From Rhizobium etli CFN 42 (GTDB lineage Bacteria > Pseudomonadota > Alphaproteobacteria > Rhizobiales > Rhizobiaceae): a DNA stretch of 64,000 nucleotides. This document shows, one piece after another, positions 12,430 through 30,476 of the stretch (positions are counted from its first letter, which is position 1; each line of letters starts with the position of its first letter). The notes beneath the pieces are model-generated. The model was not told the DNA's origin. It was given only the letters and a program-made list of their open reading frames with translations, and ran no database searches. The stretch lies in NCBI RefSeq assembly GCF_000092045.1, contig NC_007764.1, forward strand, positions 1 to 64,000. The letters run 5' to 3'. The position numbers were made by a program, and so were the translations under genes.

Positions 12430-12517
12430 ATGGAAGCGGAATGTCCGATATCATCGACGATCTCCTGCGCCTCAGCGAAGATCCGAATGCCGACCCAGGA
12501 GCCGGCGCCGGCAAACC

Positions 12518-12748: not shown

Positions 12749-12805
12749 AACGTGACCGATATCGCCGAGCATAGGCAGGTGATAATCCGGCGAAGCGAGG
12801 TTCGG

Positions 12806-13522: not shown

Positions 13523-13554
13523 GCGCCGTGCGTCCTTTCAGACCCACGGCGCTT
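13521..13554. terminator. Hairpin terminator between convergent chaC-like and tauC genes
   Basis: AAGCGCCGTG (13521-13530) pairs perfectly with CACGGCGCTT (13545-13554) across a 14-base loop, directly at the end of the plus-strand ChaC-like gene and 27 bp before the stop of the minus-strand permease. The U-tract is short, so this may act as a bidirectional or weakly rho-independent terminator. Confidence 0.6.
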
Positions 13555-13580
13555 TGACGTTTTGAATTGCTTGCATTCCC

Positions 13581-15220: not shown

Positions 15221-15238
15221 GGTGCCACTCGCAAGTTT

Positions 15239-15270
15239 GATGCCGGCGCGACGATGGTCGCGCCGGCATC
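15239..15270 (-). other. Intercistronic hairpin between tauA and tauB
   Basis: A perfect 14-bp stem, GATGCCGGCGCGAC (15239-15252) and GTCGCGCCGGCATC (15257-15270), with a four-base loop occupies most of the 58-bp gap. Without a U-tract it is unlikely to be a full terminator. It more probably stabilises tauA mRNA or partially attenuates downstream expression, giving excess binding protein. Confidence 0.65.
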
Positions 15271-15278
15271 GGAGAGGA

Positions 15279-16292
15279 TCAGTTGCTGACGCTGGTAAGC
15301 GCGTCGGCGGTGACGAAGGCGCCGTAATTCGCCAGCACGTCGGACACCTTGCCCTGTTCCTTCAGGAACGATGCCGTGTCCTTCAGGATCTTGCCGGCGC
15401 CCGCCTTTTCGCCGCCACCGAGCCAGGCGTCCGATGCCTGGACCTCAGGAGTGAGCAGCGTCAGGTTCTTCAGAGCCGAGGCCTGCTGCTCGGCCGTTCC
15501 GCCGAGAAGCTTGGCGAGCGCCTTGGCGTTGTCGCTGTCGGGACCCCAGGCGGCCTTGTCCGAGGCGAAGGACGCATAGTATTTGGTGACGACTGAGGCA
15601 AAACCCTTCAGGAATTCCGGATTGTCGCCGGCAAATTTCGAGGTGGCAACCCAGGCCGAGAATGTCGGCGCGCCCTTGTCCGCCACATCCTTGGAGGTCA
15701 CCAGAACCTTGCCGTTCTTCTTGAGTTCGGTCAGCGCCGGATCCCAGACGAAACCGCCGTCAATATCGCCGCGGTTATAGCTCGCCACGATCTCAGGCTG
15801 GGGGATTGCGAAGACCTGGACGTCCTTCTCGGTCAGGCCAAGCGATTTGATCAGCGCCAAAAGCTGATAGTGGTCCGTGGAGACGGGCGCGGCGGCAAGC
15901 TTCTTGCCCTTCAGATCGTTGAGGCTTTCGATGCCCGAGCCGTTGCGGACGACGAGAGCCTCGTCGATGCCCGAGATGGAGGCGAGGTAGAAGGCCTTGA
16001 CCTCGAGCCCGCGCGATACCGCAGCCGCAAACGGGCTGGAGCCGACATAGCCGACCTGAACGTCGCCCGAGGCGATGGCCGCGAATATCTCGGCGCCGGA
16101 ATTGAACCTGCGGAAGTCGATGTCATACCCGGTCTTCTTGGCGAATTCGCCGTTGGCGATTGCCACGGAAGACGGCAGGGCGTCGGTTTGATAGCCGACT
16201 ACGACCTTCTTGTCCGCCGCCTCAGCGGCGATCGCCGTTGCGAGAGTGCCGACGCCGACGGCGATTGCGGCAAGCAAATTTCTGAAATTCAT
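15279..16292 (-). CDS. tauA: Taurine ABC transporter periplasmic binding protein (TauA-like)
   Basis: 337-residue periplasmic binding protein. A signal peptide ([20 protein letters not shown]) precedes the mature region beginning [19 protein letters not shown]. The conserved TauA features include [36 protein letters not shown] and [15 protein letters not shown], the last two contributing ligand contacts in the family. It leads the minus-strand tauABC unit and is divergent from the FAD/NAD(P)-binding gene at 16494. The shared 201-bp intergenic region carries the TTTATAGA motif seen in front of the other sulfur genes. Confidence 0.88.
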
Positions 16293-16389
16293 CTTGAGCC
16301 CCTTTGTTCGAGGGCCACCCGGCCCATTGATCTCACCTGCAAAAGGGTAATGGTTGATATGGGGCTGGCGGGAGGAATAACAAACTATA

Positions 16390-16404
16390 TTTATAGACTA
16401 TGAA
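16390..16404 (+). promoter_or_regulatory. TTTATAGA motif in the tauA / FAD-protein intergenic region
   Basis: TTTATAGACTATGAA sits in the divergent intergenic region. It lies inside a small palindrome, CTATATTTATAG (16385-16396). It shares TTTATAGA with 862-869 and 10684-10691, suggesting common control of tauABC, the FAD/NAD(P) protein and the LLM cluster. Confidence 0.35.
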
Positions 16405-16493
16405 GATAATTGTTTTCGTGATTCTGCCGGTTGAGCCATCCGCGTGGCGGTGAGTGACAAGAAGCGGCTTTACCGAGGTTCAGGGAGAATGCC

Positions 16494-17864
16494 TTGACAT
16501 ACGATGTTATCGTCGTCGGTTCCGGTTTTTCAGCGATCGCTGTGACCTGTAATCTCGTCGAACTGCTTCCCGCGTCGGCCAAGATAGCGGTCGTCGGCGA
16601 CGATGCCGGTTTCGGACGCGGGACGGCATATAGGACGGAGCTCTATCTCCATCGCCTCAACGTGCCGGCCGGCCGCATGAGCCTGCTGCCCCATCACCCT
16701 GACGATTTCGTCGACTGGCTGAAGGCCCATGGACGTCCTATGCAGGCCGGCGATTTCGCCTCGCGCAGCGATTACGGCCTTTATGTCAGGGATACGCTTG
16801 CGCGGCTGCTTCGAAAGCGGGATGGCCGTTGCCGGGTCGATTTCATCAAGGCCAAAGCAGCCGGGTGCGTGGAGCGTTACACCAGCACGCTCGCCTTTCA
16901 CCTCGGCAATGGCGACGAGGTCGCCGGGAAGAATGTGGTGCTTTGCCTCGGCGTCGGAAACGCCGACCTTCCGGTCGAACCGACTGGCGTTCCGTCTTCG
17001 CTGCGATCGCGGATCGTTGAGAACCCGTGGCGGCTCTCCTGGCTGAGGCGCGTCGCGCCCTCCGATGCGGTCTGTATTCTCGGCTCCGGCCTGACGATGA
17101 TCGATCAGGTTCTGGCACTTCGCGCCCATGGCCACAGAGGCAGGATCGACGTGCTTTCGCGACGCGGCCTGGCGCCGCTCGGCCATGCGAGGACGCCGCC
17201 CGCGCCGCTGCCGATCGACGTTCACACGCTTCCGGCTACGATCAGCGGCCTGTTGAAGATCTTGCGGGAAAAGAGCAGGTCGGTCGCCGACTGGCGGAGC
17301 GTGATGGACGGCCTGAGGCCGGCCACGCAGGCTCTCTGGCAGCGGCTTTCGTACGACGAGCGAGCACGGTTCCTGCGGCATGCGCTTCCCTGGTGGAACA
17401 TCCACCGTCACCGGGTCGCGCCTGACGTGTTCGCAGGGTTCGAGAAACTGGTCTTAGACGGAACCGTTCGCTTCCATGCGGGCTTCCTGAAATCGCTCGA
17501 GGCCGAAGATGACAGGCTGGTCGCCGGATACAGGGTCAGAGCCAAGCGCGAGATCGCCGAGATCAGGGCGGACTGGCTGGTCAACTGCACGGGTATGGAG
17601 CGCGCCGGCATCAGCCATTCGCCGCTTCTGAAGGAAATGAGCCGGTTTCAGCTTATTGTTCCCGATCCGCTTGGCCTCGGCATCCAGGTGGATGCAGCTT
17701 CCGAAGTGACGGCTCCGTCCCGGATCTCGCCGGCGCGGCTGTTTGCCGTCGGCGCCTTGACGGCGGGACAATTCTGGGAGATCACCGCCGTCCCCGACAT
17801 CCGGGTGCAGGCGAAGGCCGTGGCCGAAGAGATCGTCCGGCCGCGGCCCAATTCTGACGCGTAG
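16494..17864 (+). CDS. FAD/NAD(P)-binding oxidoreductase (COG4529-like)
   Basis: 456-residue flavoprotein. An N-terminal Rossmann dinucleotide motif reads VIVVGSGFSAIAVTCNL, the second nucleotide site is CILGSGLTMIDQVLALRAHG near residue 200, and the C terminus reads LFAVGALTAGQFWEITAVPDIRVQA. It resembles the YdhS/COG4529 group, related to N-hydroxylating flavin monooxygenases, whose physiological role is mostly undefined. The start is TTG at 16494, six bases after GGGAG. Divergent arrangement with tauA suggests coordinated expression and a part in sulfonate or taurine use, which is inference only. Confidence 0.75.
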   Translation: MTYDVIVVGSGFSAIAVTCNLVELLPASAKIAVVGDDAGFGRGTAYRTELYLHRLNVPAGRMSLLPHHPDDFVDWLKAHGRPMQAGDFASRSDYGLYVRDTLARLLRKRDGRCRVDFIKAKAAGCVERYTSTLAFHLGNGDEVAGKNVVLCLGVGNADLPVEPTGVPSSLRSRIVENPWRLSWLRRVAPSDAVCILGSGLTMIDQVLALRAHGHRGRIDVLSRRGLAPLGHARTPPAPLPIDVHTLPATISGLLKILREKSRSVADWRSVMDGLRPATQALWQRLSYDERARFLRHALPWWNIHRHRVAPDVFAGFEKLVLDGTVRFHAGFLKSLEAEDDRLVAGYRVRAKREIAEIRADWLVNCTGMERAGISHSPLLKEMSRFQLIVPDPLGLGIQVDAASEVTAPSRISPARLFAVGALTAGQFWEITAVPDIRVQAKAVAEEIVRPRPNSDA

Positions 17865-18009: not shown

Positions 18010-18705
18010 ATGAGCGGTGCTCTGAAGGACGCAGCAATCAGGGTCGAGCGTCCTGCGAAGACCTTGCGGGAACTGGCGCTCGACAAGGTCCGCGAGGCCA
18101 TCGTCAACGGATACTTCCGGCCCGGAGACCGGCTTGTCGAGCGCGACCTCTGCGCCCAGCTCGGCGTCAGCCGGACGGTGGTGCGCGAGGTTCTGAGGCA
18201 TCTGGAATCGGAAGGGCTAGTCGCCAATCTGCCGAACAAGGGACCGATCGTCGCCCAGCTGGATATCGAGGAAGCCAAACAGATCTATGAAATCCGCGGT
18301 GCGCTCGAAGGCATGGCGGCGCGGCTCTGCGCTGAACGCGGCAGCCCCGAGATCGTCGCCGCGCTCGAGGAATCCCTGAGCGCAATCCGCAACAGCTATC
18401 GCGATCAGGATATGGCGGGTGTGCTCGCCAATACTTCTTCCTTCTATCAAACACTGTTCACCATGGTCGACCGGCATGTCGCCTGGGGCGTCGTCAACCT
18501 GCTCACCGTTCGCATCAACCATCTGCGCTCGATGACAATCAAGACGGAGCGGCGCGGCATCGAGGGGCCGGCACAGATGTCGAAGATCGTCGACGCTATC
18601 CGCCGCGGCGACGGCGAGGGGGCCCAGCGGGCGGCGATGGATCATGTCGCCGCCGCCAGCGCAATTGCCGAAGCGGTGCTGTCCGCCCAGAAGCCTGCGG
18701 AATAA
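18010..18705 (+). CDS. GntR-family (FCD) transcriptional regulator
   Basis: 231-residue regulator. The N-terminal winged helix includes LGVSRTVVREVLRHLESEGLV (shortened: recognition helix around SRTVVREVLRHL), and the C-terminal helical FCD ligand domain starts near EIRGALEGMAARLCAERG, with its metal/ligand histidines expected in the later helices (MVDRHVAW, MDHVAAAS). GAGGTACAGC precedes the ATG. The gene is followed by a 272-bp regulatory gap and the long catabolic operon at 18978. Three sites with a TGG-N4-CCA core flank it, so it probably represses both itself and that operon until its ligand, perhaps the substrate, is present. Confidence 0.85.
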   Translation: MSGALKDAAIRVERPAKTLRELALDKVREAIVNGYFRPGDRLVERDLCAQLGVSRTVVREVLRHLESEGLVANLPNKGPIVAQLDIEEAKQIYEIRGALEGMAARLCAERGSPEIVAALEESLSAIRNSYRDQDMAGVLANTSSFYQTLFTMVDRHVAWGVVNLLTVRINHLRSMTIKTERRGIEGPAQMSKIVDAIRRGDGEGAQRAAMDHVAAASAIAEAVLSAQKPAE

Positions 18706-18766
18706 TTCCTTAAAACTCGTCGTATCGCATTAAACGATCACTGCAGGCCGCCGACAAGGCGCTGTC

Positions 18767-18786
18767 GCATCGACAATTGTCGATGC
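18767..18786. promoter_or_regulatory. Perfect 20-bp palindrome of unknown function
   Basis: GCATCGACAATTGTCGATGC is a perfect palindrome in the gap after the GntR gene. It differs from the TGG-N4-CCA sites. It could be an operator for another regulator or a small hairpin at the end of the gntR transcript. Confidence 0.4.
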
Positions 18787-18854
18787 CACTGCGCATAGGC
18801 AATTACATTCCCGGAACTCTACACTCCGAGCTTGACACCCGTCTTTGCTCGATG

Positions 18855-18873
18855 TGATGGTATGCCATAATGA
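18855..18873. promoter_or_regulatory. Second GntR operator-like site
   Basis: The core TGGTATGCCATAAT (18858-18871) repeats the right half of the palindrome at 18934-18953. A TTGACA hexamer lies at 18832-18837, about 20 bp upstream, so this site could overlap an upstream promoter of the operon. Confidence 0.5.
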
Positions 18874-18921
18874 ATAACATATAAGGCGGTATCCCCAATC
18901 TGCGTCCTCACAGAAACCAAC

Positions 18922-18953
18922 TTGACACCTGCATATTATGGTATACCATAATA
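18922..18953 (+). promoter_or_regulatory. Operon promoter overlapped by a perfect GntR palindrome
   Basis: A consensus -35 TTGACA (18922-18927) is followed by the perfect 20-bp palindrome TATTATGGTATACCATAATA (18934-18953). A CATAAT -10 (18947-18952) inside the palindrome gives a 19-bp spacer. A repressor bound here would block RNA polymerase. The first operon gene starts 25 bp downstream. TGGTATACCA-type symmetric sites are common for FCD-GntR regulators. Confidence 0.65.
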
Positions 18954-18977
18954 CCTAATAGAGAGATGAGGTGCTCC

Positions 18978-19580
18978 ATGGCCATTCAAATTCGCAAGAC
19001 GGGACTGCAGATCGAAACGACGCTGATCGAGGGCGGCAAGGCCGCGGCGGTGCCGCTAAAACTGTTTTCCGCTTTCGCGGTCGTGAAGAACCCCTGGGCG
19101 GGCCGCGGCTTTGTTGAAGACCTCAAGCCGGAAATCCATGCGGGCGCTCCGCTTCTCGGTGAGTTGCTGACCAAGATGATCATCGATGCGGTCGGTTCCG
19201 GCGATGCGGTCGAAGCCTATGGCAAGGCCGCCGTCGTGGGCCTGGATGGTGAGATCGAACATGCCTCCGCGCTCATCCACACGCTGCGTTTCGGCAATTT
19301 TTACCGCCATGCCGTCGGCGCCAAGTCCTATCTCGCCTTCTGCAACACCCGCGGTCCTGCCAATGCGCCGATCATGATCCCGCTGATGGATAAGGACGAC
19401 GAAGGCCGCCGGTCGCACTATCTCACCATCCAGACCTCGATCCCCGACGCGCCTGCCGCTGACGAGATCGTCGTCGCCCTTGGCGCTTCAGTGGGCGGGC
19501 GTCCGCATCACCGCATTGGCGACCGCTATCAGGATCTGAAAGATCTTGGGCAGGACGTGGCCAACCCTGCGGGCGTTTGA
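18978..19580 (+). CDS. DUF1185 'amino acid synthesis' family protein
   Basis: 200-residue protein of the DUF1185 family, annotated in databases as 'amino acid synthesis' without a proven reaction. Recognisable segments are PLKLFSAFAVVKNPWAGRGF near residue 30, VGLDGEIEHASALIHTLRFG in the middle, and ALGASVGGRPHHRIGDRYQD near the end. I place the start at ATG 18978, after GAGGTGCTCC, rather than an ATG four codons earlier. It is the first gene after the GntR-controlled promoter and overlaps or abuts the alpha/beta hydrolase gene, so it belongs to the catabolic operon. Its job there is unknown. Confidence 0.75.
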   Translation: MAIQIRKTGLQIETTLIEGGKAAAVPLKLFSAFAVVKNPWAGRGFVEDLKPEIHAGAPLLGELLTKMIIDAVGSGDAVEAYGKAAVVGLDGEIEHASALIHTLRFGNFYRHAVGAKSYLAFCNTRGPANAPIMIPLMDKDDEGRRSHYLTIQTSIPDAPAADEIVVALGASVGGRPHHRIGDRYQDLKDLGQDVANPAGV

Positions 19581-19596
19581 AGGGGTGGGCGCTGAG

Positions 19597-20439
19597 ATGC
19601 TGACAGCCGGATCGATCTCGGGCGCCGCTGCAGCGAAGGGCGCCGGTGACTTGCCGCGAAAGAAGACGCCAGGCGGAACGGCCTATCACGAGGCCGGCAG
19701 CGGCGAGCCGCTGGTTCTCATCCATGGCGTCGGCATGCGACTCGAGGCCTGGGCGCCGCAGATCGCGTTCCTGTCGGCCGGCCATCGCGTCATTGCCGTC
19801 GACATGCCGGGGCATGGCGAGAGCGCAAAGCTGCCTGCGGGCAGCCGCCTCGAGGAGTTTGTCGCCTGGTTCGGGCGCTTTCTCGACGAAATGGCGATCG
19901 ACAGGTTGAATGTTGCCGGCCACTCGATGGGTGCGCTGGTATCCGGAGGAGCGGCTGCGACGCTCGGCGAACGGATCAGCCGTGTCGCGTACCTCAACGG
20001 TGTCTACAGGCGCGATCCGCAAGCAAAGGCTGCTGTGCTCGCGCGGGCTGCGGCCATTCCGCTGACGGGCGTCGACAAGGAAGGGCCGCTGGCGCGCTGG
20101 TTCGGCGATGATGCAGACAGCGTCGTTGCGCGGGAACTGACGCGAGAATGGCTCAGTCGCGTCGATCCGGACGGCTATGCGGTTGCTTATGCCGCTTTTG
20201 CCGGCGGAGACGAGACCTATGCCGATCGCTGGAAAGACGTGGCTGGTCCGGCCCTGTTCCTGACGGGGTCCGACGATCCCAACTCGACACCTTTGATGGC
20301 AGAGCAGATGGCGGCGCTCGCGCCGAAGGGCTGGGTCCGCATCGTCGAAGGCCATCGTCACATGGTGAACCTGACCGCGCCTGATATCGTCAATTCGCTG
20401 CTCGCCGAGTGGCTGTCGTTCGGGGAGGATGAACGATGA
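19597..20439 (+). CDS. Alpha/beta hydrolase (TgnD-like candidate)
   Basis: 280-residue alpha/beta-fold hydrolase. The oxyanion motif HG is at residues 43-44 (LIHGVGM), the nucleophile motif GHSMG places Ser110, and the late histidine lies in VEGHRHMVNL. The start is ATG 19597; an upstream in-frame ATG at 19546 lies inside the preceding gene. The stop overlaps the flavin reductase start (ATGA). In the trigonelline pathway TgnD, an alpha/beta hydrolase, splits (E)-2-((N-methylformamido)methylene)succinate into succinate semialdehyde, methylamine, formate and CO2. That role is inferred here from the company of a reductase, an LLM oxygenase and two aldehyde dehydrogenases. Confidence 0.78.
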   Translation: MLTAGSISGAAAAKGAGDLPRKKTPGGTAYHEAGSGEPLVLIHGVGMRLEAWAPQIAFLSAGHRVIAVDMPGHGESAKLPAGSRLEEFVAWFGRFLDEMAIDRLNVAGHSMGALVSGGAAATLGERISRVAYLNGVYRRDPQAKAAVLARAAAIPLTGVDKEGPLARWFGDDADSVVARELTREWLSRVDPDGYAVAYAAFAGGDETYADRWKDVAGPALFLTGSDDPNSTPLMAEQMAALAPKGWVRIVEGHRHMVNLTAPDIVNSLLAEWLSFGEDER

Positions 20440-21371
20440 CAATCCAGACTGTCGATCCAAGAGCATTGCGCGATGCATTCGGAGCTTTTCCGACCGGCGT
20501 GACTGTCGTCACCGCCTGCGACGGGGAGGGGCATCCGATCGGCTTCACCGCGAACTCCTTCACATCCGTCTCGCTCAACCCGCCATTGCTGCTCGTCTGC
20601 CTTGCCAAGACCTCGCGTAATTTCGCCATCATGACCGGAGCGCCGCATTTTGCCATCAATGTGCTCTCGGAAACGCAGAAGGATGTGTCGAACACTTTTG
20701 CGCGGCCGGTCGAAGACCGCTTTGCGGTGGTTGAATGGGCCAAGGGTTCTGCCGGCTGCCCGATCTTCTCGAATGTCGCCGCCTGGTTCGAATGTGCCAT
20801 GGAAGAGGTCATCGAGGCCGGCGACCATGTCATTCTGATTGGGCGCATCGAGTCCTTCGACAATAGCGGGCGCAACGGTCTCGGCTATGCCCGTGGTGGT
20901 TATTTCACGCCGACGCTCGCAAGCAAGGCGGTTTCGGCGGCGGCCGAAGGTAATATCGAACTTGCGGCCGTCGTCGAACGACGCGGCGAGGTTCTGCTGC
21001 TGGGCGAGGATGTGCTCTCACTGCCAAGCATCGACGCCCATGACGGCAATCCGACCGAGGCGCTGGAACAATATCTGGAGACGCTCACCGGGCTGAAGAT
21101 CAGCATCGGCTTCCTCTATTCGGTCTATGAGGGCAAGAGCGATGGCAAGCAGCACATCGTCTATCACGCCGTTGCCGGCGACGGCGAGCCAGCCGGCGGC
21201 AGGTTCGTAAAGCCCGACGCCTTGGCTGCGGCAAAATTCAAGACCAGTTCGACCGCCGATATCGTCAATCGCTTTGCGATGGAAAGCTCGATCGGCAATT
21301 TCGGTGTCTATTTCGGTGACGAGACCGGCGGCACCATTCATCCCATTCCAGCCAAGGGCGCAAAAGCATGA
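20436..21371 (+). CDS. Flavin reductase with C-terminal Nudix-like domain (TgnA-like candidate)
   Basis: 311-residue protein with two parts. Residues 1 to about 165 are an HpaC-type flavin reductase (AFPTGVTVVTACDGEG, FTANSFTSVSLNPPLLLVC, HFAINVLSE), which reduces FMN with NAD(P)H for a partner oxygenase. Residues about 175-305 look like a degenerate Nudix fold (ELAAVVERRGEVLLLG, then LEQYLETLTGLKISIGFLYSV and GGRFVKPDAL) without an obvious catalytic Nudix box, so it may be a regulatory or ligand-sensing domain. It overlaps both neighbours by ATGA, including the LLM monooxygenase at 21368, which it most likely serves. TgnA is the reductase of trigonelline monooxygenase in Acinetobacter. Confidence 0.8.
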   Translation: MTIQTVDPRALRDAFGAFPTGVTVVTACDGEGHPIGFTANSFTSVSLNPPLLLVCLAKTSRNFAIMTGAPHFAINVLSETQKDVSNTFARPVEDRFAVVEWAKGSAGCPIFSNVAAWFECAMEEVIEAGDHVILIGRIESFDNSGRNGLGYARGGYFTPTLASKAVSAAAEGNIELAAVVERRGEVLLLGEDVLSLPSIDAHDGNPTEALEQYLETLTGLKISIGFLYSVYEGKSDGKQHIVYHAVAGDGEPAGGRFVKPDALAAAKFKTSSTADIVNRFAMESSIGNFGVYFGDETGGTIHPIPAKGAKA

Positions 21372-22408
21372 AGTTCTCCCTCTTCGTCCATATGGAACGC
21401 CTCGACGCCAGCCAGAGCCATAAAAGCCTCTACGACGAATTTGTTGCGCTCTGCGAGATCGCCGACAAGGGCGGCATGCATGCGATCTGGACGGGCGAGC
21501 ATCATGGCATGGATTTCACCATCGCGCCCAACCCGTTCGTCACCATTGCCGATCTCGCGCGCCGCACTTCGCGAGCAAGGCTCGGGACGGGGACGGTGAT
21601 CGCTCCCTTCTGGCATCCGATCAAGCTCGCCGGCGAAGCGGCCATGACCGACATTATCTGCGACGGAAGGCTCGATATCGGCATTGCCCGCGGCGCCTAT
21701 TCCTTCGAATACGAGCGCCTGCTGCCGGGTCTCGATGCCTGGGGTGCCGGCCAGCGCATGCGCGAGCTCATCCCGGCGGTCAAGGGCATATGGGCTGGCG
21801 ACTACGCCCATGACGGCGAGTTTTTCAAATTTCCCGCGACAACCTCGGCGCCGAAGCCGCTGCAGCAGCCGAACCCGCCGATCTGGGTTGCCGCGCGCGA
21901 CCCGAACTCGCACGAATTTGCCGTCGCCAACGGCTGCAACGTTCAGGTCACGCCGCTCTGGCAGGGCGATGACGAGGTCCAGTCGCTGATGGACCGCTTC
22001 AACGATGCCTGCGCCAAGAACCCCGATGTTGAACGGCCGAAGATCATGCTGCTGCGCCACACCTATGTCGGCTCCTCCGAAGACGACGTCGCCCAGGCGG
22101 CCCATGAACTCAGCGTCTACTACAACTACTTCTTCGCCTGGTTCAAGAATGAGAAGCCGGTGACCCAGGGCCTGATCGAACGGATTCCGGACGAGCAGAT
22201 CCGAGCCAACGCCATGCTGTCGGATCAGGTCATGCGCACCAACAATGTCGTGGGAGACGCCGAGACCGTCATCGACCGGCTCAAAGCCTATGAAGCCCTC
22301 GGCTATGACGAATATTCCTTCTGGATCGACACCGGCATGAGTTTCGAGCGCAAGAAGGCGTCGCTCGAACGCTTCATCGCCGAGGTCATGCCGGCATTTC
22401 AGGAGTAG
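21368..22408 (+). CDS. LLM-class flavin-dependent monooxygenase (TgnB-like candidate)
   Basis: 346-residue luciferase-family monooxygenase. MKFSLFVHMERLD opens the first beta strand, WTGEHHGMDFTIAPNPF near residue 40 lines the flavin site, and ARLGTGTVIAPFWHPIKLAGE and GRLDIGIARGAYSFEYERL are family-typical. It is translationally coupled to the flavin reductase. TgnB is the oxygenase that opens the pyridinium ring of trigonelline; ring-opening of other N-heterocycles (for example pyridine) is done by related LLM enzymes, so the ring type is an inference. The aldehyde dehydrogenase starts 4 bp after its stop. Confidence 0.82.
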   Translation: MKFSLFVHMERLDASQSHKSLYDEFVALCEIADKGGMHAIWTGEHHGMDFTIAPNPFVTIADLARRTSRARLGTGTVIAPFWHPIKLAGEAAMTDIICDGRLDIGIARGAYSFEYERLLPGLDAWGAGQRMRELIPAVKGIWAGDYAHDGEFFKFPATTSAPKPLQQPNPPIWVAARDPNSHEFAVANGCNVQVTPLWQGDDEVQSLMDRFNDACAKNPDVERPKIMLLRHTYVGSSEDDVAQAAHELSVYYNYFFAWFKNEKPVTQGLIERIPDEQIRANAMLSDQVMRTNNVVGDAETVIDRLKAYEALGYDEYSFWIDTGMSFERKKASLERFIAEVMPAFQE

Positions 22409-22412
22409 GACC

Positions 22413-23876
22413 ATGCGGCGTTTCCAGCATTACATCGATGGCGAATTCTCGGATGGCGAAGCTTCCTACCCGAGCATCGATCCGGCGACCGGCGCAGCCT
22501 GGGCGGAGATGCCGGAAGCGCGCGAAGGTGATGTCGACCGGGCCGTGAATGCTGCCGAGAAGGCGCTCTACGAGGGTCCCTGGGCGAAGATGACGGCCAC
22601 GCAGCGAGGCAAGCTGCTCTATAAGCTCGCCGATCTCGTTGCCGCCAACGCGCAGGTGCTCGCCGAGCTCGAGACCCGCGACACCGGCAAGATTATCCGC
22701 GAGACATCGGCGCAGATCGCCTATGTCGCGGAATATTACCGCTATTATGCCGGCATATCAGATAAGATCGAAGGCTCCTACCTGCCAATCGACAAGCCTG
22801 ACATGGATGTCTGGCTTCGCCGCGAGCCGATCGGCGTCGTCGCCATGGTCGTGCCATGGAACAGCCAGCTCTTTCTGTCAGCGGTCAAGATCGGCCCGGC
22901 GCTCGCCGCCGGCTGCACGATGGTGGTGAAGGCCTCGGAAGATGGGCCGGCGCCGCTTCTCGAATTTGCGCGTCTCGTGCATGAGGCAGGCTTTCCCGCC
23001 GGCGTCGTCAACATCATCACCGGGTTCGGCCCCTCCTGCGGGGCGGCCCTCGGCCGTCACCCGAAGGTCGCCCATGTCGCCTTCACCGGCGGCCCGGAAA
23101 CCGCCCGGCACGTCGTGCGCAACTCGGCCGAAAACCTCGCTTCCACCTCGCTTGAACTCGGCGGCAAGTCGCCCTTCATCGTCTTTGCCGACGCCGATCT
23201 CGAAAGCGCCGCCAACGCCCAGGTCGCCGGCATCTTCGCCGCGACGGGACAGAGCTGCGTCGCCGGCTCGCGGCTGATCGTCGAGCGCAGCGTCAAGGAC
23301 AGGTTCGTCGCGCTGCTGCGGCAGAAGGCGGCAGCAATCCGGATCGGCGCGCCGCTCGACATGGCGACCGAAGTCGGCCCGCTTGCCACCAAGCGCCAGC
23401 AGGACAATATCGGCGTTCTTATCGAGAGATCGATCGAAAGCGGCGCCCGCCTCGTCACCGGGGGACGCAAGATCGACGGCGAAGGCTATTATTTCCCGCC
23501 GACGATCCTCGATTGCGACGATGTCGCTTCGCCCTCGCTGATCGAGGAATTCTTCGGGCCGGTCCTCTCCGTCGTCTCCTTCGAGACCGAGGCCGAGGCG
23601 CTGAAGCTGGCCAACGATACCCGCTACGGCCTGGCTTCCGGCATTTTCACGCAGAACCTCACCCGTGCGCACCGGCTGATGAAGGCCATCCGCGCCGGGA
23701 TCGTCTGGGTCAACACCTACCGCGCCGTATCGCCGATCGCGCCCTTCGGCGGCTTCGGCCTGTCGGGCCACGGCAGGGAAGGCGGCATGGCCGCGGCGCT
23801 CGATTATACCCGTACCAAGACGATCTGGCTGAGGACCTCCGACGATCCGATCCCCGATCCCTTCGTGATGAGGTGA
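22413..23876 (+). CDS. Aldehyde dehydrogenase (TgnC-like candidate)
   Basis: 487-residue NAD(P)-dependent aldehyde dehydrogenase of full length. Catalytic Glu248 lies in LELGGKSP and nucleophile Cys282 in GQSCVAGSR; the glycine motif FTGGPETARHV contacts the cofactor. It resembles betaine/hydroxymuconic semialdehyde types. Placed directly after the reductase-oxygenase pair, it would oxidise the aldehyde or hydroxylactone formed by ring opening, as TgnC oxidises (Z)-2-((N-methylformamido)methylene)-5-hydroxybutyrolactone. It is followed after 4 bp by the NIPSNAP gene. Confidence is high in the family and moderate in the substrate. Confidence 0.85.
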   Translation: MRRFQHYIDGEFSDGEASYPSIDPATGAAWAEMPEAREGDVDRAVNAAEKALYEGPWAKMTATQRGKLLYKLADLVAANAQVLAELETRDTGKIIRETSAQIAYVAEYYRYYAGISDKIEGSYLPIDKPDMDVWLRREPIGVVAMVVPWNSQLFLSAVKIGPALAAGCTMVVKASEDGPAPLLEFARLVHEAGFPAGVVNIITGFGPSCGAALGRHPKVAHVAFTGGPETARHVVRNSAENLASTSLELGGKSPFIVFADADLESAANAQVAGIFAATGQSCVAGSRLIVERSVKDRFVALLRQKAAAIRIGAPLDMATEVGPLATKRQQDNIGVLIERSIESGARLVTGGRKIDGEGYYFPPTILDCDDVASPSLIEEFFGPVLSVVSFETEAEALKLANDTRYGLASGIFTQNLTRAHRLMKAIRAGIVWVNTYRAVSPIAPFGGFGLSGHGREGGMAAALDYTRTKTIWLRTSDDPIPDPFVMR

Positions 23877-23880
23877 CGCG

Positions 23881-24204
23881 ATGTTTTACGAAGTCCGCAC
23901 CTATCGGCTGAAGAACGGCACGATCCCGCAATATCTCAAGGTCGTCGAGGAAGAAGGGATCGAAATCCAGAAGAGCCATCTCGGCACGCTGGTCGGCTAC
24001 TTCTTCTCCGAGATCGGCACGATCAACGAGATCATCCACATCTGGGCCTTTACGAGCCTGGACGACCGCGACGCGAGACGCCAGCGGCTTCTGGCCGATC
24101 CGCGATGGCAGGCCTTCCTGCCCAAGATCCGCGACCTGATCGAGGTGGCGGAAAACAAGATTATGAAGCCGGCAAGCTTCTCTCCCCGGAGCGAGGCGCG
24201 CTGA
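23881..24204 (+). CDS. NIPSNAP-family protein
   Basis: 107-residue dimeric alpha-beta barrel protein of the NIPSNAP family, visible in MFYEVRTYRLKNGTIPQYLK, the GYFFSEIGTINEIIHIWAF strand pair and DRDARRQRLLADPRWQAFLPK. Family members often accompany oxygenase pathways but their biochemical role is mostly unproven; some may be ring-opening or isomerisation helpers. It is the last gene before the ABC importer of the operon. It is not among the trigonelline pathway enzymes I can name. Confidence 0.85.
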   Translation: MFYEVRTYRLKNGTIPQYLKVVEEEGIEIQKSHLGTLVGYFFSEIGTINEIIHIWAFTSLDDRDARRQRLLADPRWQAFLPKIRDLIEVAENKIMKPASFSPRSEAR

Positions 24205-24253
24205 CGGCATAAGCCATAACCCGTAGGACAAACCAAAACAGGGATAAGGGAAC

Positions 24254-25264
24254 ATGAAAACGACATTTGCTTTCGCGGCGGTTGCCGCATTTATGGCGGT
24301 CTCCGCGCCGGCGCACGCTGACAGCATGGTCTTCTCGAGCTGGGGCGGAACGACCCAGGATGCGCAGAAGGCGGCGTGGGCGAGCCCCTTCACCGAAAAG
24401 ACCGGCATCACCGTCGTGCAGGACGGCCCGACCGACTACGGCAAGCTCAAGGCCATGGTCGAGGCCGGCGAAGTCAACTGGGATGTCGTCGACGTCGAAG
24501 GCGACTATGCCGCCCAGGCCGGCAAGAACGGCCAGCTCGAGAAGCTCGACTTTTCCGTCATCGACAAGTCGAAGCTCGATCCGCGATTCGTCACCGATTA
24601 TTCGGTCGGCAGCTTCTATTATTCCTTCGTCATCGGCTGCAATGCCGATGCCGTCAAAGCCTGCCCGAAGACGTGGGCCGACCTGTTCGACACCGCGAAA
24701 TTCCCCGGCAAGCGCACCTTCTACAAGTGGTCGGCTCCCGGCGTGATCGAAGCGGCGCTGCTTGCCGACGGTGTGCCTGCCGACAAGCTTTATCCGCTCG
24801 ATCTCGACCGCGCCTTCAAGAAGCTCGATACGATCAAATCCGATATTATCTGGTGGTCGGGCGGCGCCCAGTCGCAGCAGTTGCTGGCCTCCGCCGAAGC
24901 GCCTTTCGGCAGCGTCTGGAACGGCCGTATGACGGCGCTTGCGGCGACCGGCATCAAGGTGGAAACCTCCTGGGAGCAGAACATCACCGCCGCCGATGCG
25001 CTCGTCGTGCCGAAGGGCGCGCCGAATGCCGAGGCTGCCATGAAGTTCATCGCGCTGGCAACCTCGGCCGAACCGCAGGCTGCCCTTGCAAAGGCTACGG
25101 GATATGCGCCCATCAATATTGACTCGGCCAAGCTGATGGACCCGGAGACGGCCAAGACCCTGCCGGACCAGCAGACGGCAAGCCAGGTGAATGCCGATAT
25201 GAATTATTGGGCAGAGAACCGCGATGCCATCGGCGAGAAGTGGTACGCCTGGCAGGCGAAATAA
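24254..25264 (+). CDS. Polyamine-type ABC transporter periplasmic binding protein
   Basis: 336-residue PotD/PotF-type binding protein. A signal peptide (FAFAAVAAFMAVSAPAHA) is followed by DSMVFSSWGGTTQDAQK, the family start. NWDVVDVEGDYAAQAGKNG and SDIIWWSGGAQSQQLLASAE are ligand-side segments. Binding proteins of this cluster recognise cationic small molecules such as putrescine and spermidine, and related ones bind quaternary-ammonium compounds, which would suit trigonelline. It is followed by two permeases and an ATPase, so it is a complete importer. GGGATAAGGGAAC precedes the ATG. Confidence 0.86.
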   Translation: MKTTFAFAAVAAFMAVSAPAHADSMVFSSWGGTTQDAQKAAWASPFTEKTGITVVQDGPTDYGKLKAMVEAGEVNWDVVDVEGDYAAQAGKNGQLEKLDFSVIDKSKLDPRFVTDYSVGSFYYSFVIGCNADAVKACPKTWADLFDTAKFPGKRTFYKWSAPGVIEAALLADGVPADKLYPLDLDRAFKKLDTIKSDIIWWSGGAQSQQLLASAEAPFGSVWNGRMTALAATGIKVETSWEQNITAADALVVPKGAPNAEAAMKFIALATSAEPQAALAKATGYAPINIDSAKLMDPETAKTLPDQQTASQVNADMNYWAENRDAIGEKWYAWQAK

Positions 25265-25378
25265 GTTGAAACTCGAGATGAACAGGCACGGCGAAGATCG
25301 CCGTGCCCCACGGCGCCGGTGCCAATCGGTTGCATTCGGCGCGTGCCCCGCGGAAATTGACGGGTGGGAAGGACTGTC

Positions 25379-26251
25379 ATGTCGACGTATAGCGACGCCT
25401 CCGGCGCAATCATGCCTCTGCCAAAGATACGCAGGGCAACAGGTTTTGGCGGGGTCGTTCCGGCTCTTGCCTTTGTGGGCATCTTCTTTGTCGCGCCGGT
25501 GGCGATACTGCTGCTGCGCAGCGTCCTGGAGCCCGTTCCGGGCCTTGGAAATTATGCCCAGCTGATCGGCTCTGCCACCTATCTCAAGATTTTCGCCAAT
25601 ACTTTCATCGTCTCAGGCTTCGTCACCGCGATTTCGCTGGCGATCGGATTTCCCGTCGCCTGGGCGCTGGCGATCATGCCCGGTCGGCTGAGCTCGGTGA
25701 TCTTTGCGATTCTGCTGCTGTCGATGTGGACCAACCTGCTGGCCCGCACCTATGCCTGGATGGTGCTGCTGCAACGGACCGGACTCATCAACAAGATGCT
25801 GATGGGAATGGGTCTGATCGATCAGCCGCTGGCGCTCGTCAACAATCTGACCGGTGTCACGATCGGCATGACCTACATCATGCTGCCCTTCATCATCCTG
25901 CCGCTCTACGGCGTGATCAAGAAGATCGATCCGTCGACGTTGCAGGCGGCCGCCCTTTGCGGCGCCAACCGCTGGCAGTGCCTGACGCGTGTTCTGCTGC
26001 CGCTGGCCATGCCCGGCATGGCGGCCGGCGCCCTGATGGTCTTCGTGATGTCGCTCGGCTATTTCGTCACGCCCTCGCTTCTTGGCGGCACCGCCAACAT
26101 GATGCTGGCAGAACTGATCGCGCAGTTCGTGCAGTCGCTGGTCAACTGGGGAATGGGCGGCGCGGCGGCGCTGGTGCTCCTGGTGGTGACGCTCTCGCTT
26201 TATGCTGTGCAGCTGCGTTTCTTCGGCAACCAGAATCCGGGAAGGCGTTGA
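25379..26251 (+). CDS. Polyamine-type ABC transporter permease 1 (PotB-like)
   Basis: 290-residue inner-membrane permease. After a short cytoplasmic leader (MSTYSDASGAIMPLPKIRRA) there are about six membrane segments and the EAA coupling loop LQAAALCGANRWQCLTRVLLP. The start is ATG 25379, six bases after GGAAGGA; the frame opens five codons earlier. A 114-bp gap separates it from the binding protein gene. It pairs with the next permease as a heterodimer. Confidence 0.85.
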   Translation: MSTYSDASGAIMPLPKIRRATGFGGVVPALAFVGIFFVAPVAILLLRSVLEPVPGLGNYAQLIGSATYLKIFANTFIVSGFVTAISLAIGFPVAWALAIMPGRLSSVIFAILLLSMWTNLLARTYAWMVLLQRTGLINKMLMGMGLIDQPLALVNNLTGVTIGMTYIMLPFIILPLYGVIKKIDPSTLQAAALCGANRWQCLTRVLLPLAMPGMAAGALMVFVMSLGYFVTPSLLGGTANMMLAELIAQFVQSLVNWGMGGAAALVLLVVTLSLYAVQLRFFGNQNPGRR

Positions 26252-26252
26252 T

Positions 26253-27053
26253 ATGTTGCTCAATTTCGACCGTCTCGGCTGGTGGAAATATGTCCTGCTG
26301 GCGATCACGCTTCTGACCGCAGCCTTTCTGCTGCTGCCGATCGTCTTCATCGCGGCCCTGTCCTTCGGCTCCTCGCAATGGCTGATCTTTCCGCCGCCTG
26401 GCTGGACGCTTCAATGGTACAGCGAGCTTTTTGCCGATCCGCGTTGGGTGGAATCGGCTTTGACGAGCTTCAAGATCGCGGTCATCGTCACCATCCTGTC
26501 GGTGCTGCTCGGGCTGGTGACGTCCTTCGGGCTGGTGCGCGGTTCGTTCATGTTCCGCGATGCGCTGAAAGCGTTGTTCCTGACCCCGATGATCCTGCCG
26601 GTCGTGGTTCTCGCGGTTGCCCTCTACGCCTTCTTTCTCAGGATCGGCCTTGGCGGCACCCTGACGGGCTTCGTCATTTCGCACCTCGTGCTGGCGCTGC
26701 CCTTCTCGATCCTCTCCATATCCAGTGCGCTGGAGGGCTTCGACAAGTCGATCGAGGATGCGGCCGTGCTGTGCGGCGCCTCGCCTTTGGAAGCGAAGAT
26801 CAGGGTCACGCTTCCGGCGATCAGCCATGGGCTGTTTTCGGCCGCTGTCTTTTCGTTCCTGACCTCCTGGGACGAGGTGGTGGTGGCGATCTTCATGTCC
26901 AGCCCGACCCTGCAGACGCTGCCGGTAAAGGTGTGGGCGACGCTGCGGCAGGACCTGACGCCCGTTGTCGCTGCAGCATCGACCCTTCTCATCCTGTTGA
27001 CGATCATCTTGATGGCGCTGGTTGCCGTCGTGCGTAAGGTACTGAAACAATGA
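26253..27053 (+). CDS. Polyamine-type ABC transporter permease 2 (PotC-like)
   Basis: 266-residue permease, starting one base after the stop of its partner (MLLNFDRLGWWKYVLLAITL). Six hydrophobic segments and the coupling loop EDAAVLCGASPLEAKIRVTLP are visible, as well as the family-typical FSFLTSWDEVVVAIF. The stop overlaps the ATPase start by four bases (ATGA). The open frame extends upstream into the preceding gene but that part is shadow. Confidence 0.86.
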   Translation: MLLNFDRLGWWKYVLLAITLLTAAFLLLPIVFIAALSFGSSQWLIFPPPGWTLQWYSELFADPRWVESALTSFKIAVIVTILSVLLGLVTSFGLVRGSFMFRDALKALFLTPMILPVVVLAVALYAFFLRIGLGGTLTGFVISHLVLALPFSILSISSALEGFDKSIEDAAVLCGASPLEAKIRVTLPAISHGLFSAAVFSFLTSWDEVVVAIFMSSPTLQTLPVKVWATLRQDLTPVVAAASTLLILLTIILMALVAVVRKVLKQ

Positions 27054-28129
27054 GCGAACCATTCCTTCAGATCCGCGGAATACGTAAGGAATACGGCCCT
27101 GTGGTTGCCGTGCACGACGTCAATCTCGATGTCCGGCGCGGTGAATTCCTGACTTTCCTCGGCCCTTCCGGATCCGGCAAGAGCACGACGCTCTACATCC
27201 TGGCCGGCTTTGAAAACCCGACCAAAGGCGACATCACCCTCGAGGGCAGGACGCTGCTCGTCACGCCGTCGCACAAGCGCAATATCGGCATGGTGTTCCA
27301 GCGCTACACCCTGTTTCCGCATCTGACGGTGGGTGAAAACATCGCCTTTCCGCTGAAGGTCCGACGCAAGGCGAAGGCCGAGATCGACAGCAAGGTGAAG
27401 GAGATGCTGCGCCTCGTCCGGCTCGAAGGCTTCGAGGATCGCAAGCCGGCGCAGATGTCAGGCGGTCAGCAGCAGCGTGTCGCTCTTGCCAGAGCCCTTG
27501 CCTATGATCCGCCGGTGCTTCTGATGGACGAGCCGCTGTCGGCGCTCGACAAGAAGCTGCGCGAGGAAATCCAGCATGAAATCCGCCGCATCCACCAGCA
27601 GACCGAAGTGACGATCCTTTACGTCACGCACGACCAGGAAGAGGCGCTGCGGCTCTCCGACCGCATTGCCGTCTTTTCCAAGGGCGTCATCGATCAGATC
27701 GGAACAGGTCCGGAGCTCTACGCCAATCCCAAGACCCGTTTCGTTGCCGAATTCATCGGCGACAGCGACTTCATTTCATGCGACTTGGTGTCGTCCTCCG
27801 ATGGACAAGCCACCATTGCGCTCGGCGGCGGAACCATCTTCAATCAGATTCCGGTGCATGGAAAAGGGGCGTCCGGCGCAAGGGCGGCGCTGATGCTGAG
27901 GCCGGAGCGCATCCGGCTGTCGCGCGCGAGAGCCGCAGGCGCAGGTCTTGCCGCGACCGTCAGCGACATTACCTTTCTCGGCAACAACATCCACGTCTCC
28001 ACAGAGACGGCGACAGGCGAGGCGCTTTCCGTTCGCTTGCCGTTCGGTCATGAGGCTATTGCCGGTCTCAACCGTGGAGATATAGTCCATCTCGATTTCG
28101 ATCCCGGCGCCGCTCACGTATTCTGTTGA
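27050..28129 (+). CDS. Polyamine-type ABC transporter ATP-binding protein (PotA-like)
   Basis: 359-residue ABC ATPase with C-terminal TOBE domain. Walker [10 protein letters not shown] is at residues 38-46, followed by the Q-loop in GMVFQRYTLFPH, the signature [15 protein letters not shown] and Walker B LLMDEPLSALD. The TOBE region includes LMLRPERIRLSRA. It completes the binding-protein/permease/permease/ATPase set of the operon. The succinate-semialdehyde dehydrogenase gene begins 10 bp after its stop. Confidence 0.88.
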   Translation: MSEPFLQIRGIRKEYGPVVAVHDVNLDVRRGEFLTFLGPSGSGKSTTLYILAGFENPTKGDITLEGRTLLVTPSHKRNIGMVFQRYTLFPHLTVGENIAFPLKVRRKAKAEIDSKVKEMLRLVRLEGFEDRKPAQMSGGQQQRVALARALAYDPPVLLMDEPLSALDKKLREEIQHEIRRIHQQTEVTILYVTHDQEEALRLSDRIAVFSKGVIDQIGTGPELYANPKTRFVAEFIGDSDFISCDLVSSSDGQATIALGGGTIFNQIPVHGKGASGARAALMLRPERIRLSRARAAGAGLAATVSDITFLGNNIHVSTETATGEALSVRLPFGHEAIAGLNRGDIVHLDFDPGAAHVFC

Positions 28130-28139
28130 AAGTTGTCCC

Positions 28140-29594
28140 ATGAAACTCAATGATCCCTCGTTGTTCCGTCAGGCATGCCCCATCGCTGATCGCTGGATCG
28201 AAGCGGAAGGTCGCGCGTCGGCCATGGTCCGCAATCCGGCGACAGGGGAGGTGCTGGGTTCGGTCCCTGATTTCGGTGCGGCGGAAACGGAAGAAGCCAT
28301 CGCCGCCGCAGTCGTTGCTCAGAAGCTTTGGGCGAAGAAGACCGCCGGTGAGCGCGCAACCGTGCTCAAGACATGGCACCGCCTGATGATCGAAAACCGC
28401 GACGATTTGGCGATGATCCTGACGCTAGAACAGGGAAAACCGCTTGCTGAAGCCAAGGGGGAAATCACCTATGGTGCGAGCTTCATCGAATGGTTCGCCG
28501 AGGAGGCACGACGCATCAACGGCGAGATCGTACCGGGACATCAGCCGGACAAGCGGATCCTCGTGCTGCGCCAGCCGGCCGGCGTGGTGGCGGCGATCAC
28601 GCCCTGGAATTTTCCGAATGCGATGATCACCCGCAAGATCGGCCCCGCGCTTGCCGCCGGCTGCGCCGTCGTTCTCAAGCCGGCGCTGCAGACGCCGTTC
28701 TCCGCCATCGCGATCGCCGTCCTCGCTGAGCGCGCCGGCCTGCCGGCGGGGCTCCTCAACATTGTCACAGGTGACGCAGCCGCAATCGGCGGGGCGCTGA
28801 CCGCCAGCCGCGACGTCCGGGTCCTGACCTTCACCGGCTCCACCCGGACGGGCGAGCTGCTTTATCGGCAATGTGCGCCGACGATCAAGAAGCTCGGCCT
28901 CGAGCTCGGCGGCAATGCACCCTTCATCGTGTTCGACGACGCCGATCTCGACGCGGCTGTCGAAGGCGCCATCATCGCCAAGTTCCGCAACAACGGTCAG
29001 ACCTGCGTCTGCGCCAACCGGCTTTATGTCCAGGACGGCGTCTACGAGGCATTTGCAGCCAAGCTCGCGGAGGCCGTTTCAAAGTTGAAGGTCGGCAACG
29101 GTCTGGAGCGTGACGTCGTGCTTGGCCCGCTCATCGACGACAATGCGGTTGCCAAGGTCGAAAGCCATATTCAGGATGCCGTGGCAAAGGGTGCCGGGAT
29201 CGTAACGGGAGGCAAGCGCCACGCGCTTGGCGGCCATTTCTTCGAGCCGACCATTCTGCGTGACGTTGCCGCCGGCATGCAGGTGGCGCGTGAAGAAACG
29301 TTTGGACCTCTTGCGCCGCTTTTCCGGTTCCGCGACGAGCAGGACGTCATCGAGCAGGCAAATGACACCGAGTTCGGCCTTGCCTCCTATTTTTACGCGC
29401 GCGATCTATCGCGGGTCTTCCGCGTGGCCGAAGCGCTCGAATATGGAATGGTCGGGGTCAACACCGGTCTTGTCTCCACCGCGGAGGCGCCATTCGGCGG
29501 CGTCAAGATGTCGGGTCTCGGCCGCGAAGGCTCCAGGCACGGATTGGACGAATATACCGAGCTCAAATATGTATGCCTGGGCGGCATTGCCTGA
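28140..29594 (+). CDS. NAD(P)-dependent succinate-semialdehyde dehydrogenase (GabD/TgnE-like)
   Basis: 484-residue aldehyde dehydrogenase of the GabD type. Glu255 is in LELGGNAP and the nucleophile Cys289 in GQTCVCANR; a second cysteine two residues later is typical of succinate-semialdehyde dehydrogenases. FTGSTRTGELLYRQ and the C-terminal GREGSRHGLDEYTELKYVCLGG also match GabD. It converts succinate semialdehyde to succinate, the entry to the TCA cycle. That is the last step of the trigonelline pathway (TgnE) as well as of GABA and pyridine breakdown. Its place at the end of the operon supports a C4 dicarboxylate end product. Confidence 0.86.
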   Translation: MKLNDPSLFRQACPIADRWIEAEGRASAMVRNPATGEVLGSVPDFGAAETEEAIAAAVVAQKLWAKKTAGERATVLKTWHRLMIENRDDLAMILTLEQGKPLAEAKGEITYGASFIEWFAEEARRINGEIVPGHQPDKRILVLRQPAGVVAAITPWNFPNAMITRKIGPALAAGCAVVLKPALQTPFSAIAIAVLAERAGLPAGLLNIVTGDAAAIGGALTASRDVRVLTFTGSTRTGELLYRQCAPTIKKLGLELGGNAPFIVFDDADLDAAVEGAIIAKFRNNGQTCVCANRLYVQDGVYEAFAAKLAEAVSKLKVGNGLERDVVLGPLIDDNAVAKVESHIQDAVAKGAGIVTGGKRHALGGHFFEPTILRDVAAGMQVAREETFGPLAPLFRFRDEQDVIEQANDTEFGLASYFYARDLSRVFRVAEALEYGMVGVNTGLVSTAEAPFGGVKMSGLGREGSRHGLDEYTELKYVCLGGIA

Positions 29595-29651
29595 TCCTCA
29601 ACATATGCGTTCCAGCGCCACCCGCCTTTCAGGCGAGACGCTGTAGCGCTT

Positions 29652-30476
29652 ATGCAGGGGCAATCAAAGATCGGCATGCCTCTCGTCAGCATTGCCATGT
29701 ACCTGACATCCCGGCCGCTCGCCGAGGCGACGGCCGAACTCTGGTCGTTTCTCCGGCGCTACCTCCTGCATGCCGGCCTCATGGGGTTGCCTGAAACGCT
29801 CGACCAGTCGGTTGCATATGACGAAGCCTGGCTGAGGCCGGATCTGCTTCTGTCGCAGACATGCGGCTATCCTTTTGCCACGAGCCTGCGCGGCCGGGTG
29901 CGGCTGGTGGCCACGCCCGTCTATAGCCATCCCGACTGCGATGGGCCGCTGATGCGCAGCTTCATCATCGTTCGGAAGAATTCGTCCCTTCGCGTGCTGG
30001 AGGATCTGCGCGGCACGACAGCTGCGATCAACAGCCATAACAGCAAATCCGGGCGCAATCTCTTTCGCGCCGCCGTCGCTCCGCTTGCGCGCAACGGCCG
30101 CTTGTTTGAGCGGATCATCGAAACAGGCAGCCACGGCGGCAGCATTGCCGCCGTTATCGAGGGCAGGGCGGAAAGCGCGGCCATCGATTGTATCACTCTC
30201 GAGAATATCCGCCGCTTCGATTCCGCCAAGGTCGAGGGCATCCGGATCATCGCCGAAACGCCCAAGGCGCCCGGTCTGCCGTTCATCTCATCAGGCGGCG
30301 CATCGAGCCAAACAATCCTCCTCCTCCGAGGAGCGTTGCATGCGGCCATCAGAGAGCCGTCCTTGGCGGCCACGCGCGCCACGCTCGGACTCGTTGATAT
30401 CGCGCTGCTCTCCGAAGCGGATTACGAGCCGCTCATCTCATTTGCCGGCGATGCATTGTCGCAGCTGAGAGCTTGA
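29652..30476 (+). CDS. PhnD/SsuA-type substrate-binding family protein, no signal peptide
   Basis: 274-residue protein with the fold of phosphate/phosphonate binding proteins (COG3221): [20 protein letters not shown] at the start, [21 protein letters not shown], and a middle block [21 protein letters not shown]. No signal peptide is visible; the sequence begins [18 protein letters not shown]. It could be a cytoplasmic sensor or enzyme-like homologue, or its true start may be elsewhere. It follows the succinate-semialdehyde dehydrogenase by 57 bp and ends the module. Its ligand is unknown. Confidence 0.72.

Follow-up and report, generated by a model that had tools for sequence, protein, structure and literature searches.

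What compound is taken up and degraded by the products of the operon at positions 18010-29594 of the Rhizobium etli CFN 42 DNA analysed here? The stretch analysed (the window) comprises bases 1-64,000 of contig C5 (250,948 bases), one of the seven contigs of a 6.53 Mb genome; contigs C5 and C7 are presumably plasmids p42c and p42f. The operon contains, in this order, genes coding for a GntR/FCD regulator, a PF06684 protein, an alpha/beta hydrolase, a flavin reductase, a luciferase-like monooxygenase (LLM), an aldehyde dehydrogenase, a NIPSNAP-family protein, the binding protein, two permeases and the ATPase of a polyamine-type ABC importer (24254-28129, + strand), and a succinate-semialdehyde dehydrogenase (SSADH). 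All the genes are intact and lie on the + strand (Table 1), and the DNA of the operon is 98.9% identical to that of an R. etli Mim1 plasmid. A first-pass annotation had proposed a role in the catabolism of trigonelline (N-methylnicotinate), a betaine widespread among legumes. The hydrolase, flavin reductase, LLM, aldehyde dehydrogenase, importer and SSADH on which it relied were each found as described, while the PF06684 and NIPSNAP genes had been missed. The comparisons presented below lead to the same assignment: the operon is very probably one for the uptake and breakdown of trigonelline (estimated probability, about 0.93), because of its synteny with the tgn cluster of Acinetobacter baylyi, the well-supported clade shared by the LLMs of the two species, and a shared operator. 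Other bacteria are already known to have this pathway, to which the R. etli operon adds a further member.

In A. baylyi, Perchat et al. (2018) are said to have established the MFMB, MFMS and succinate semialdehyde steps of trigonelline degradation. The A. baylyi cluster was reached through a match to an Acinetobacter junii plasmid, followed by a scan of named genomes with the A. junii LLM. The best 80 of at least 548 stretches encoding an LLM relative (hereafter, the 80 loci) included that of A. baylyi DSM 14961 (locus L058). This locus contains a divergent GntR gene followed by genes for a PF06684 protein, a hydrolase, a reductase, an LLM, an aldehyde dehydrogenase, a cytosine-type permease, a 388-aa protein with no Pfam match, an SSADH, and a carboxymuconolactone decarboxylase-family protein. 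Homologues of all six A. baylyi tgn pathway proteins (TgnA-F) were found in the window together with the GntR regulator, in the same TgnF-D-A-B-C order (identities in Table 1). The hydrolases occupy the same cluster position, and a TgnA-type flavin reductase with a C-terminal extension adjoins the LLM gene in the window. The proposal that the operon is the rhizobial counterpart of tgn is thus supported, the regulator and TgnF, TgnD, TgnA, TgnB, TgnC and TgnE all having syntenic counterparts. Since an identical gene order recurs in distant genomes, the grouping of these genes is not due to chance. Unlike that of R. etli, the A. baylyi regulator gene is divergent, and the cytosine-type permease and Pfam-less genes stand where R. 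etli has the NIPSNAP and ABC importer genes. The kind of transporter was not treated as defining because it varies among the loci that share the core. A. baylyi TgnF is described as homologous to HcdD, a PF06684-family protein, and as stimulating the TgnE-dependent oxidation of succinic semialdehyde (PMC7913881).

For the LLM only, a tree was built from 46 rows selected among 119 distinct sequences; among those omitted were L042, L134 and L135, which have long branches, and many Burkholderiaceae and Acinetobacter rows that were nearly identical. The window and A. baylyi LLMs fell in one clade of 33 rows with 100/100 support (the TgnB clade). The first-pass annotation had named grouping with enzymes for other heterocycles as the outcome that would speak against it; instead, the window LLM lay apart from three other LLM kinds. 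These were 61-62% identical (L033, L034 and a second Caballeronia copy), 45-52% identical (L035, L036, L038, L039, L046 and L047), or of the kind encoded on R. etli contig C7. The latter was outside the TgnB clade in both trees made (in one, represented by close relatives); its branch length was 1.84, and the program warned that so long a branch may be misplaced. Among the 120 nearest listed LLM proteins, seven were named trigonelline monooxygenase, by one source, which lends weak support.

The third shared feature lies between the GntR gene and tgnF, where a perfect 20-bp palindrome, TATTATGGTATACCATAATA (18934-18953), includes the 12-bp sequence ATGGTATACCAT; an imperfect copy, ATGGTATGCCAT, is found further upstream. 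The window contained two such sites versus the 0.04 expected in shuffles. A 'GntR-family promoter' had been annotated here; the GntR gene is present, but the promoter itself is sigma-70-like, with its second hexamer inside the palindrome (one found versus 0.5 expected in shuffles, which is weak by itself). The best match to ATGGTATACCAT was then sought in the 200 bases before tgnF at the 80 loci, which include Acinetobacter, Burkholderiales, Xanthomonas, roseobacters and rhizobia. Sites with no mismatch, or with up to one, two or three mismatches, were found at 24, 67, 79 and 80 loci, respectively, against 0, 0, 3 and 20 for the reversed sequence and 0, 0.2, 0.6 and 4.6 for base-shuffled controls (five rounds). 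These loci were picked by their closeness to one LLM and are related, so they do not amount to 80 independent cases; further, Caballeronia arvi LMG 29317 and Paraburkholderia tagetis RG36 are each represented twice by the same genome. Sites with up to two mismatches were also present before 58 of 83 GntR-type matches (many sharing the intergenic region with tgnF) and 18 of 36 SSADH genes, and before none of 84 LLM and 28 binding protein genes. In A. baylyi the site precedes both tgnF (one mismatch) and tgnE (exact), and the S. meliloti site has one mismatch. The palindrome is therefore a candidate operator conserved across three proteobacterial classes. It does not mark the TgnB clade strictly, because four of the clade's more divergent clusters (L029, L031, L032 and L043) showed only sites with 4-6 mismatches in 68-164 upstream bases, while L039, which has another LLM kind, carries it with one mismatch (L047, also of another kind, has five). 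Within the R. etli genome the exact 14-base form of the operator occurs at this locus only, and sites with up to two mismatches totalled five, versus five in the control. The 12-bp candidate operator would offer a way of finding further members of the regulon.

The same operon, from the GntR gene to the SSADH gene and including the importer, was found on plasmid pSymA of Sinorhizobium meliloti (63-88% identity). Its end is ∼3 kb away from nifB, and nifA and nifH lie farther on; the R. etli operon, in contrast, lies on contig C5. No second LLM match was found on pSymA. The pSymA flavin reductase is identical to PDB entry 3RH7, which is also the best PDB match of the R. etli tgnA product and which we take to be SMa0793. 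The trc (trigonelline) region of S. meliloti was reportedly located on pSymA (Boivin 1991; Goldmann 1991). Growth on 10 mM trigonelline tells S. meliloti strains apart, the wild type being able to grow and a pSymA-deleted strain not (PMC4207669). The presence of the same operon on a plasmid whose loss abolishes this growth is a further reason for the assignment.

In R. leguminosarum 3841, plasmid pRL10 carries all the genes from the GntR regulator to SSADH in the same order, with 93-98% identity. There are eleven genes from PF06684 to SSADH, a number that fits what we take to be pRL100242-252, the 'gts operon'. White et al. (2009) are said to have described in it two monooxygenases, a hydrolase and two dehydrogenases, perhaps degrading 'a more complex precursor to GABA' (gamma-aminobutyric acid). 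Unlike the reading given here, the published account reportedly presents it as serving GABA transport and leaves its enzymes unassigned. On the present evidence, this more complex precursor is trigonelline.

The pathway steps can be assigned to R. etli because its proteins are orthologous to those of A. baylyi. Trigonelline would be brought in by the ABC importer. TgnA would then reduce flavin, and TgnB, using O2, would cleave the pyridinium ring at the C5-C6 bond, yielding MFMB, which TgnC would oxidise to MFMS. TgnD is predicted to split MFMS into CO2, methylamine, formate and succinate semialdehyde, the last being oxidised to succinate by TgnE, presumably helped by TgnF. The GntR protein, a probable repressor, may act by binding the palindrome over the second promoter hexamer, and trigonelline or a pathway intermediate may relieve this repression. 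Ring opening by TgnA/TgnB is given as the first step of trigonelline degradation in a passage that also reports better growth of Ruegeria pomeroyi on trigonelline than on homarine (PMC8269262).

Several observations weigh against this assignment. TgnA and TgnD are well diverged from their A. baylyi counterparts (42% and 49% identity), and the A. baylyi transporter is a cytosine-type permease, whereas that of R. etli is an ABC importer. The L058 LLM is considered to be TgnB as the sole good candidate: the other three LLM matches of the A. baylyi genome showed at most 30% identity in the range scored, and nothing matching the remaining tgn proteins was found within their ∼1.5 kb flanks. TgnB is given as UniProt entry Q6F9F6 in PMC11354265. 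Many of the 120 nearest listed proteins bear an alkanesulfonate-monooxygenase-like name. Contig C7 of the same genome carries another cluster of these enzyme classes, and the LLM of that cluster is outside the TgnB clade. Finally, the importer's binding protein has retained the full GABA site (8 of 8 positions).

The latter point concerns the importer rather than the enzymes. The best PDB match of its binding protein was 4EQ7 (also 4EUO), named 'substrate binding protein (Polyamine)', which we take to be the GABA-binding protein Atu4243. In the Pf622 sensor the residues described as contacting GABA are W9, T13, F100, Y102 (engineered from F), W202, R205, D228 and Y264 (PMC12999171); the corresponding residues are W, T, F, Y, W, R, D and Y in both the window protein and 4EQ7. 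With 85% identity and the same contact residues, the importer is by sequence of the Gts/Atu4243 GABA type. The enzymes might thus serve trigonelline while the importer is a true GABA importer sharing only the SSADH end of the pathway. Gts (for which White et al. 2009 is cited) and Atu4243 are described as transporting or binding GABA specifically (PMC7449393, PMC3907764), Atu4243 being called highly specific and its derepression unknown (PMC3907764). No GABA transaminase gene was seen in the operon, and the genomic distribution of these proteins makes this alternative rather unlikely, although it is the likeliest of those considered. In a survey of 394 genomes (of the Rhizobiaceae, as far as can be inferred), Gts/Atu4243-type binding proteins matching at E 1e-100 or better were found in 48, one in each; up to five candidates were scored per genome, and second copies could have been missed. 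A tgn-type LLM (≥62% identity) lay within 5 kb in all 48. For this count 56 of 76 LLM rows were used, with 19 rows at 37-44% identity being dropped along with G1018 (73%, over 193 residues only). Eight of the 56 genomes with a tgn-type LLM lacked such an importer at the threshold used. Further, a TgnC-type dehydrogenase gene was found just upstream of the binding protein gene, within ∼1.2 kb, at all 30 of the 48 loci that were fetched (that of the window included). So constant a linkage counts against a general GABA importer, because an importer of that kind should sometimes occur alone.

Since all 48 binding proteins are encoded near a tgn-type oxygenase, trigonelline is a likely native substrate of the importer and a likely inducer of the operon. 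An importer that has until now been investigated for GABA uptake would accordingly be part of the trigonelline pathway. The first-pass annotation had called the importer dedicated; the importer is indeed there, but it is of the GABA-binding type, and its role in trigonelline uptake follows from linkage, not from its own sequence. Five aromatic residues together with an Arg and an Asp in the binding pocket would suit a betaine, and there is a resemblance between trigonelline and the nipecotic acid- and arecaidine-type cyclic inhibitors of GABA uptake. The binding protein nearest to 4EQ7 (that of genome G971, 95% identical) is encoded at a locus, L173, that runs from tgnF to SSADH and includes the importer, and strain C58 itself is inferred to be arranged likewise. 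Taken together, we consider it rather probable that the Rhizobiaceae Gts/Atu4243 importer natively serves trigonelline, with GABA acting as an open-chain mimic in the aromatic Arg/Asp pocket, and that trigonelline, or an intermediate with its ring opened, relieves repression by the GntR protein (GtsR/Atu4232) via one operator conserved from alpha- to gammaproteobacteria. In that case, the putrescine role given to SMa0799-803 in S. meliloti symbiosis would be a trigonelline role.

If true, this would name the substrate and the inducer of a well-studied importer, and would link three lines of work: the Acinetobacter tgn enzymes, rhizobial trc genetics and the Gts/Atu4243 GABA importers. No publication linking the three was found in a literature search covering listings and passages. 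The reassignment of importer and inducer and the shared operator are the parts worth following. From gene order and the locus tags of the region, SMa0799-803 are taken to encode the importer of the pSymA operon, the pSymA record used having no genes annotated there. The gts mutants of R. leguminosarum are said to be unaltered in symbiosis, which counts against a large symbiotic role. A transposon sequencing (TnSeq) screen lists SMa0799-803 as potABCD2, for putrescine uptake, and as needed for symbiosis (PMC7268258); the reading of that screen would change. The GntR gene SMa0789 is described, in other papers, as found only in the symbiotic network, with insertions lowering competitiveness under NCR247.

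A second alternative is that the enzymes act on a related N-heterocycle, such as another N-methylpyridinium or a derivative of nicotinate, and use trigonelline poorly or secondarily. The LLM family has several clades with similar neighbours, at least one cluster with a different kind of LLM (L039, above) also has the operator, ahead of its PF06684 gene, and R. etli has its own parallel cluster on contig C7. The window LLM is nevertheless inside the A. baylyi clade and not in the others, and the S. meliloti operon sits where published genetics places trigonelline use; we therefore regard this alternative as very improbable. The C7 cluster (L009, C7:196001-214000, 4106-14605) comprises genes for a reductase, an aldehyde dehydrogenase, an LLM (42% identical to that of the window), a hydrolase, an amino-acid-type ABC importer and a PF06684 protein. 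It was rejected as the real tgn operon: its LLM is outside the TgnB clade, and ahead of its PF06684 gene the operator is matched with five mismatches at best. That the same classes occur together outside the clade means that enzyme classes alone do not fix the substrate. A cluster of the C7 kind was also seen on Agrobacterium fabrum pAt, with carboxymuconolactone decarboxylase-family and NIPSNAP genes (L050). At four Caballeronia loci (L090, L094, L095 and L097) two tgn-like clusters lie back to back across a shared intergenic region, one of the A. baylyi kind and the other with a 61% identical LLM of another clade.

A Rut pyrimidine or aromatic hydroxylase pathway, resembling tgn in enzyme classes only, has next to no likelihood, since the weak matches that hint at it were all below cut-off (RutF, 91.3 versus 254.75 bits; RutD, 51.4 versus 238.5; p-hydroxyphenylacetate hydroxylase reductase, 176.1 versus 340) and the LLM is in the TgnB clade. 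None of the Rut, hydroxylase or other NCBIfam families listed for TgnA, TgnB, TgnC and TgnD reached its cut-off, while the tgnE product scored 705.6 bits against a TIGR01780 cut-off of 646.35.

Table 1. Coordinates of the genes and regulatory sites of the R. etli CFN 42 operon and of the gene that follows it (window positions; aa, amino acids; ORF, open reading frame)
Feature	Position	Strand	Remarks
GntR/FCD regulator (TgnR/GtsR-like)	18010..18705	+	PF00392 and PF07729; 43% identical to A. baylyi cluster regulator, 94% to that of pRL10
Imperfect operator copy ATGGTATGCCAT	18857..18868		1 mismatch
Sigma-70-like promoter TTGACA-16-TACCAT	18922..18949	+	Second hexamer inside operator
Operator palindrome ATGGTATACCAT (candidate)	18938..18949		Within 20-bp perfect palindrome
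tgnF, PF06684 'amino acid synthesis' protein	18978..19580	+	71% to A. baylyi; start as in Mim1, ORF opens at 18966
tgnD, alpha/beta hydrolase (MFMS hydrolase)	19597..20439	+	GHSMG nucleophile motif; 49% to A. baylyi; start as in Mim1, ORF opens at 19546
tgnA, flavin reductase	20436..21371	+	311 aa with C-terminal extension; PF01613 at residues 16-158; 42% to A. baylyi
tgnB, LLM ring-opening oxygenase	21368..22408	+	73% to A. baylyi; clade support 100/100
tgnC, aldehyde dehydrogenase (MFMB dehydrogenase)	22413..23876	+	70% to A. baylyi; GQSC and ELGGK motifs
NIPSNAP-family protein	23881..24204	+	PF07978
gtsA, periplasmic binding protein of importer	24254..25264	+	85% to 4EQ7; 8/8 GABA-contact positions kept
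gtsB, permease	25364..26251	+	Likely start at 25379, from Mim1 annotation
gtsC, permease	26253..27053	+	Start as in Mim1; ORF opens at 26202
gtsD, ATPase with TOBE_2 domain	27050..28129	+	
tgnE, SSADH	28140..29594	+	TIGR01780; 59% to A. baylyi
PhnD-like ORF	29652..30476	+	PF12974

The region originally delimited extended to position 30476, thus including the PhnD-like ORF located 3' of the SSADH gene. This ORF is intact, apparently lacks a signal peptide (as judged by eye), and its DNA is conserved in closely related plasmids of R. etli and R. phaseoli. It was considered as a pathway gene and rejected: it probably falls outside the pathway because neither pSymA nor pRL10 nor any of the 80 loci gave a match to it.

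Directly 5' of the regulator gene (13581-17864) lie genes for a taurine/NMT1-type ABC importer and a PF13454 FAD/NAD(P)-binding protein, also present on pRL10. Two more LLM-family matches, 31% and 27% identical to the tgnB query over short stretches, were seen at 983-1249 and 9026-9268 of the window; pRL10 likewise has a sulfonate-like LLM neighbourhood upstream of the operon. Three TgnB-like LLMs (P0122, P0123 and P0125) were assigned by name to Salmonella enterica; they are 94% identical to the G205 protein and appeared amid Pantoea and Serratia matches, and their contigs are possibly mislabelled.

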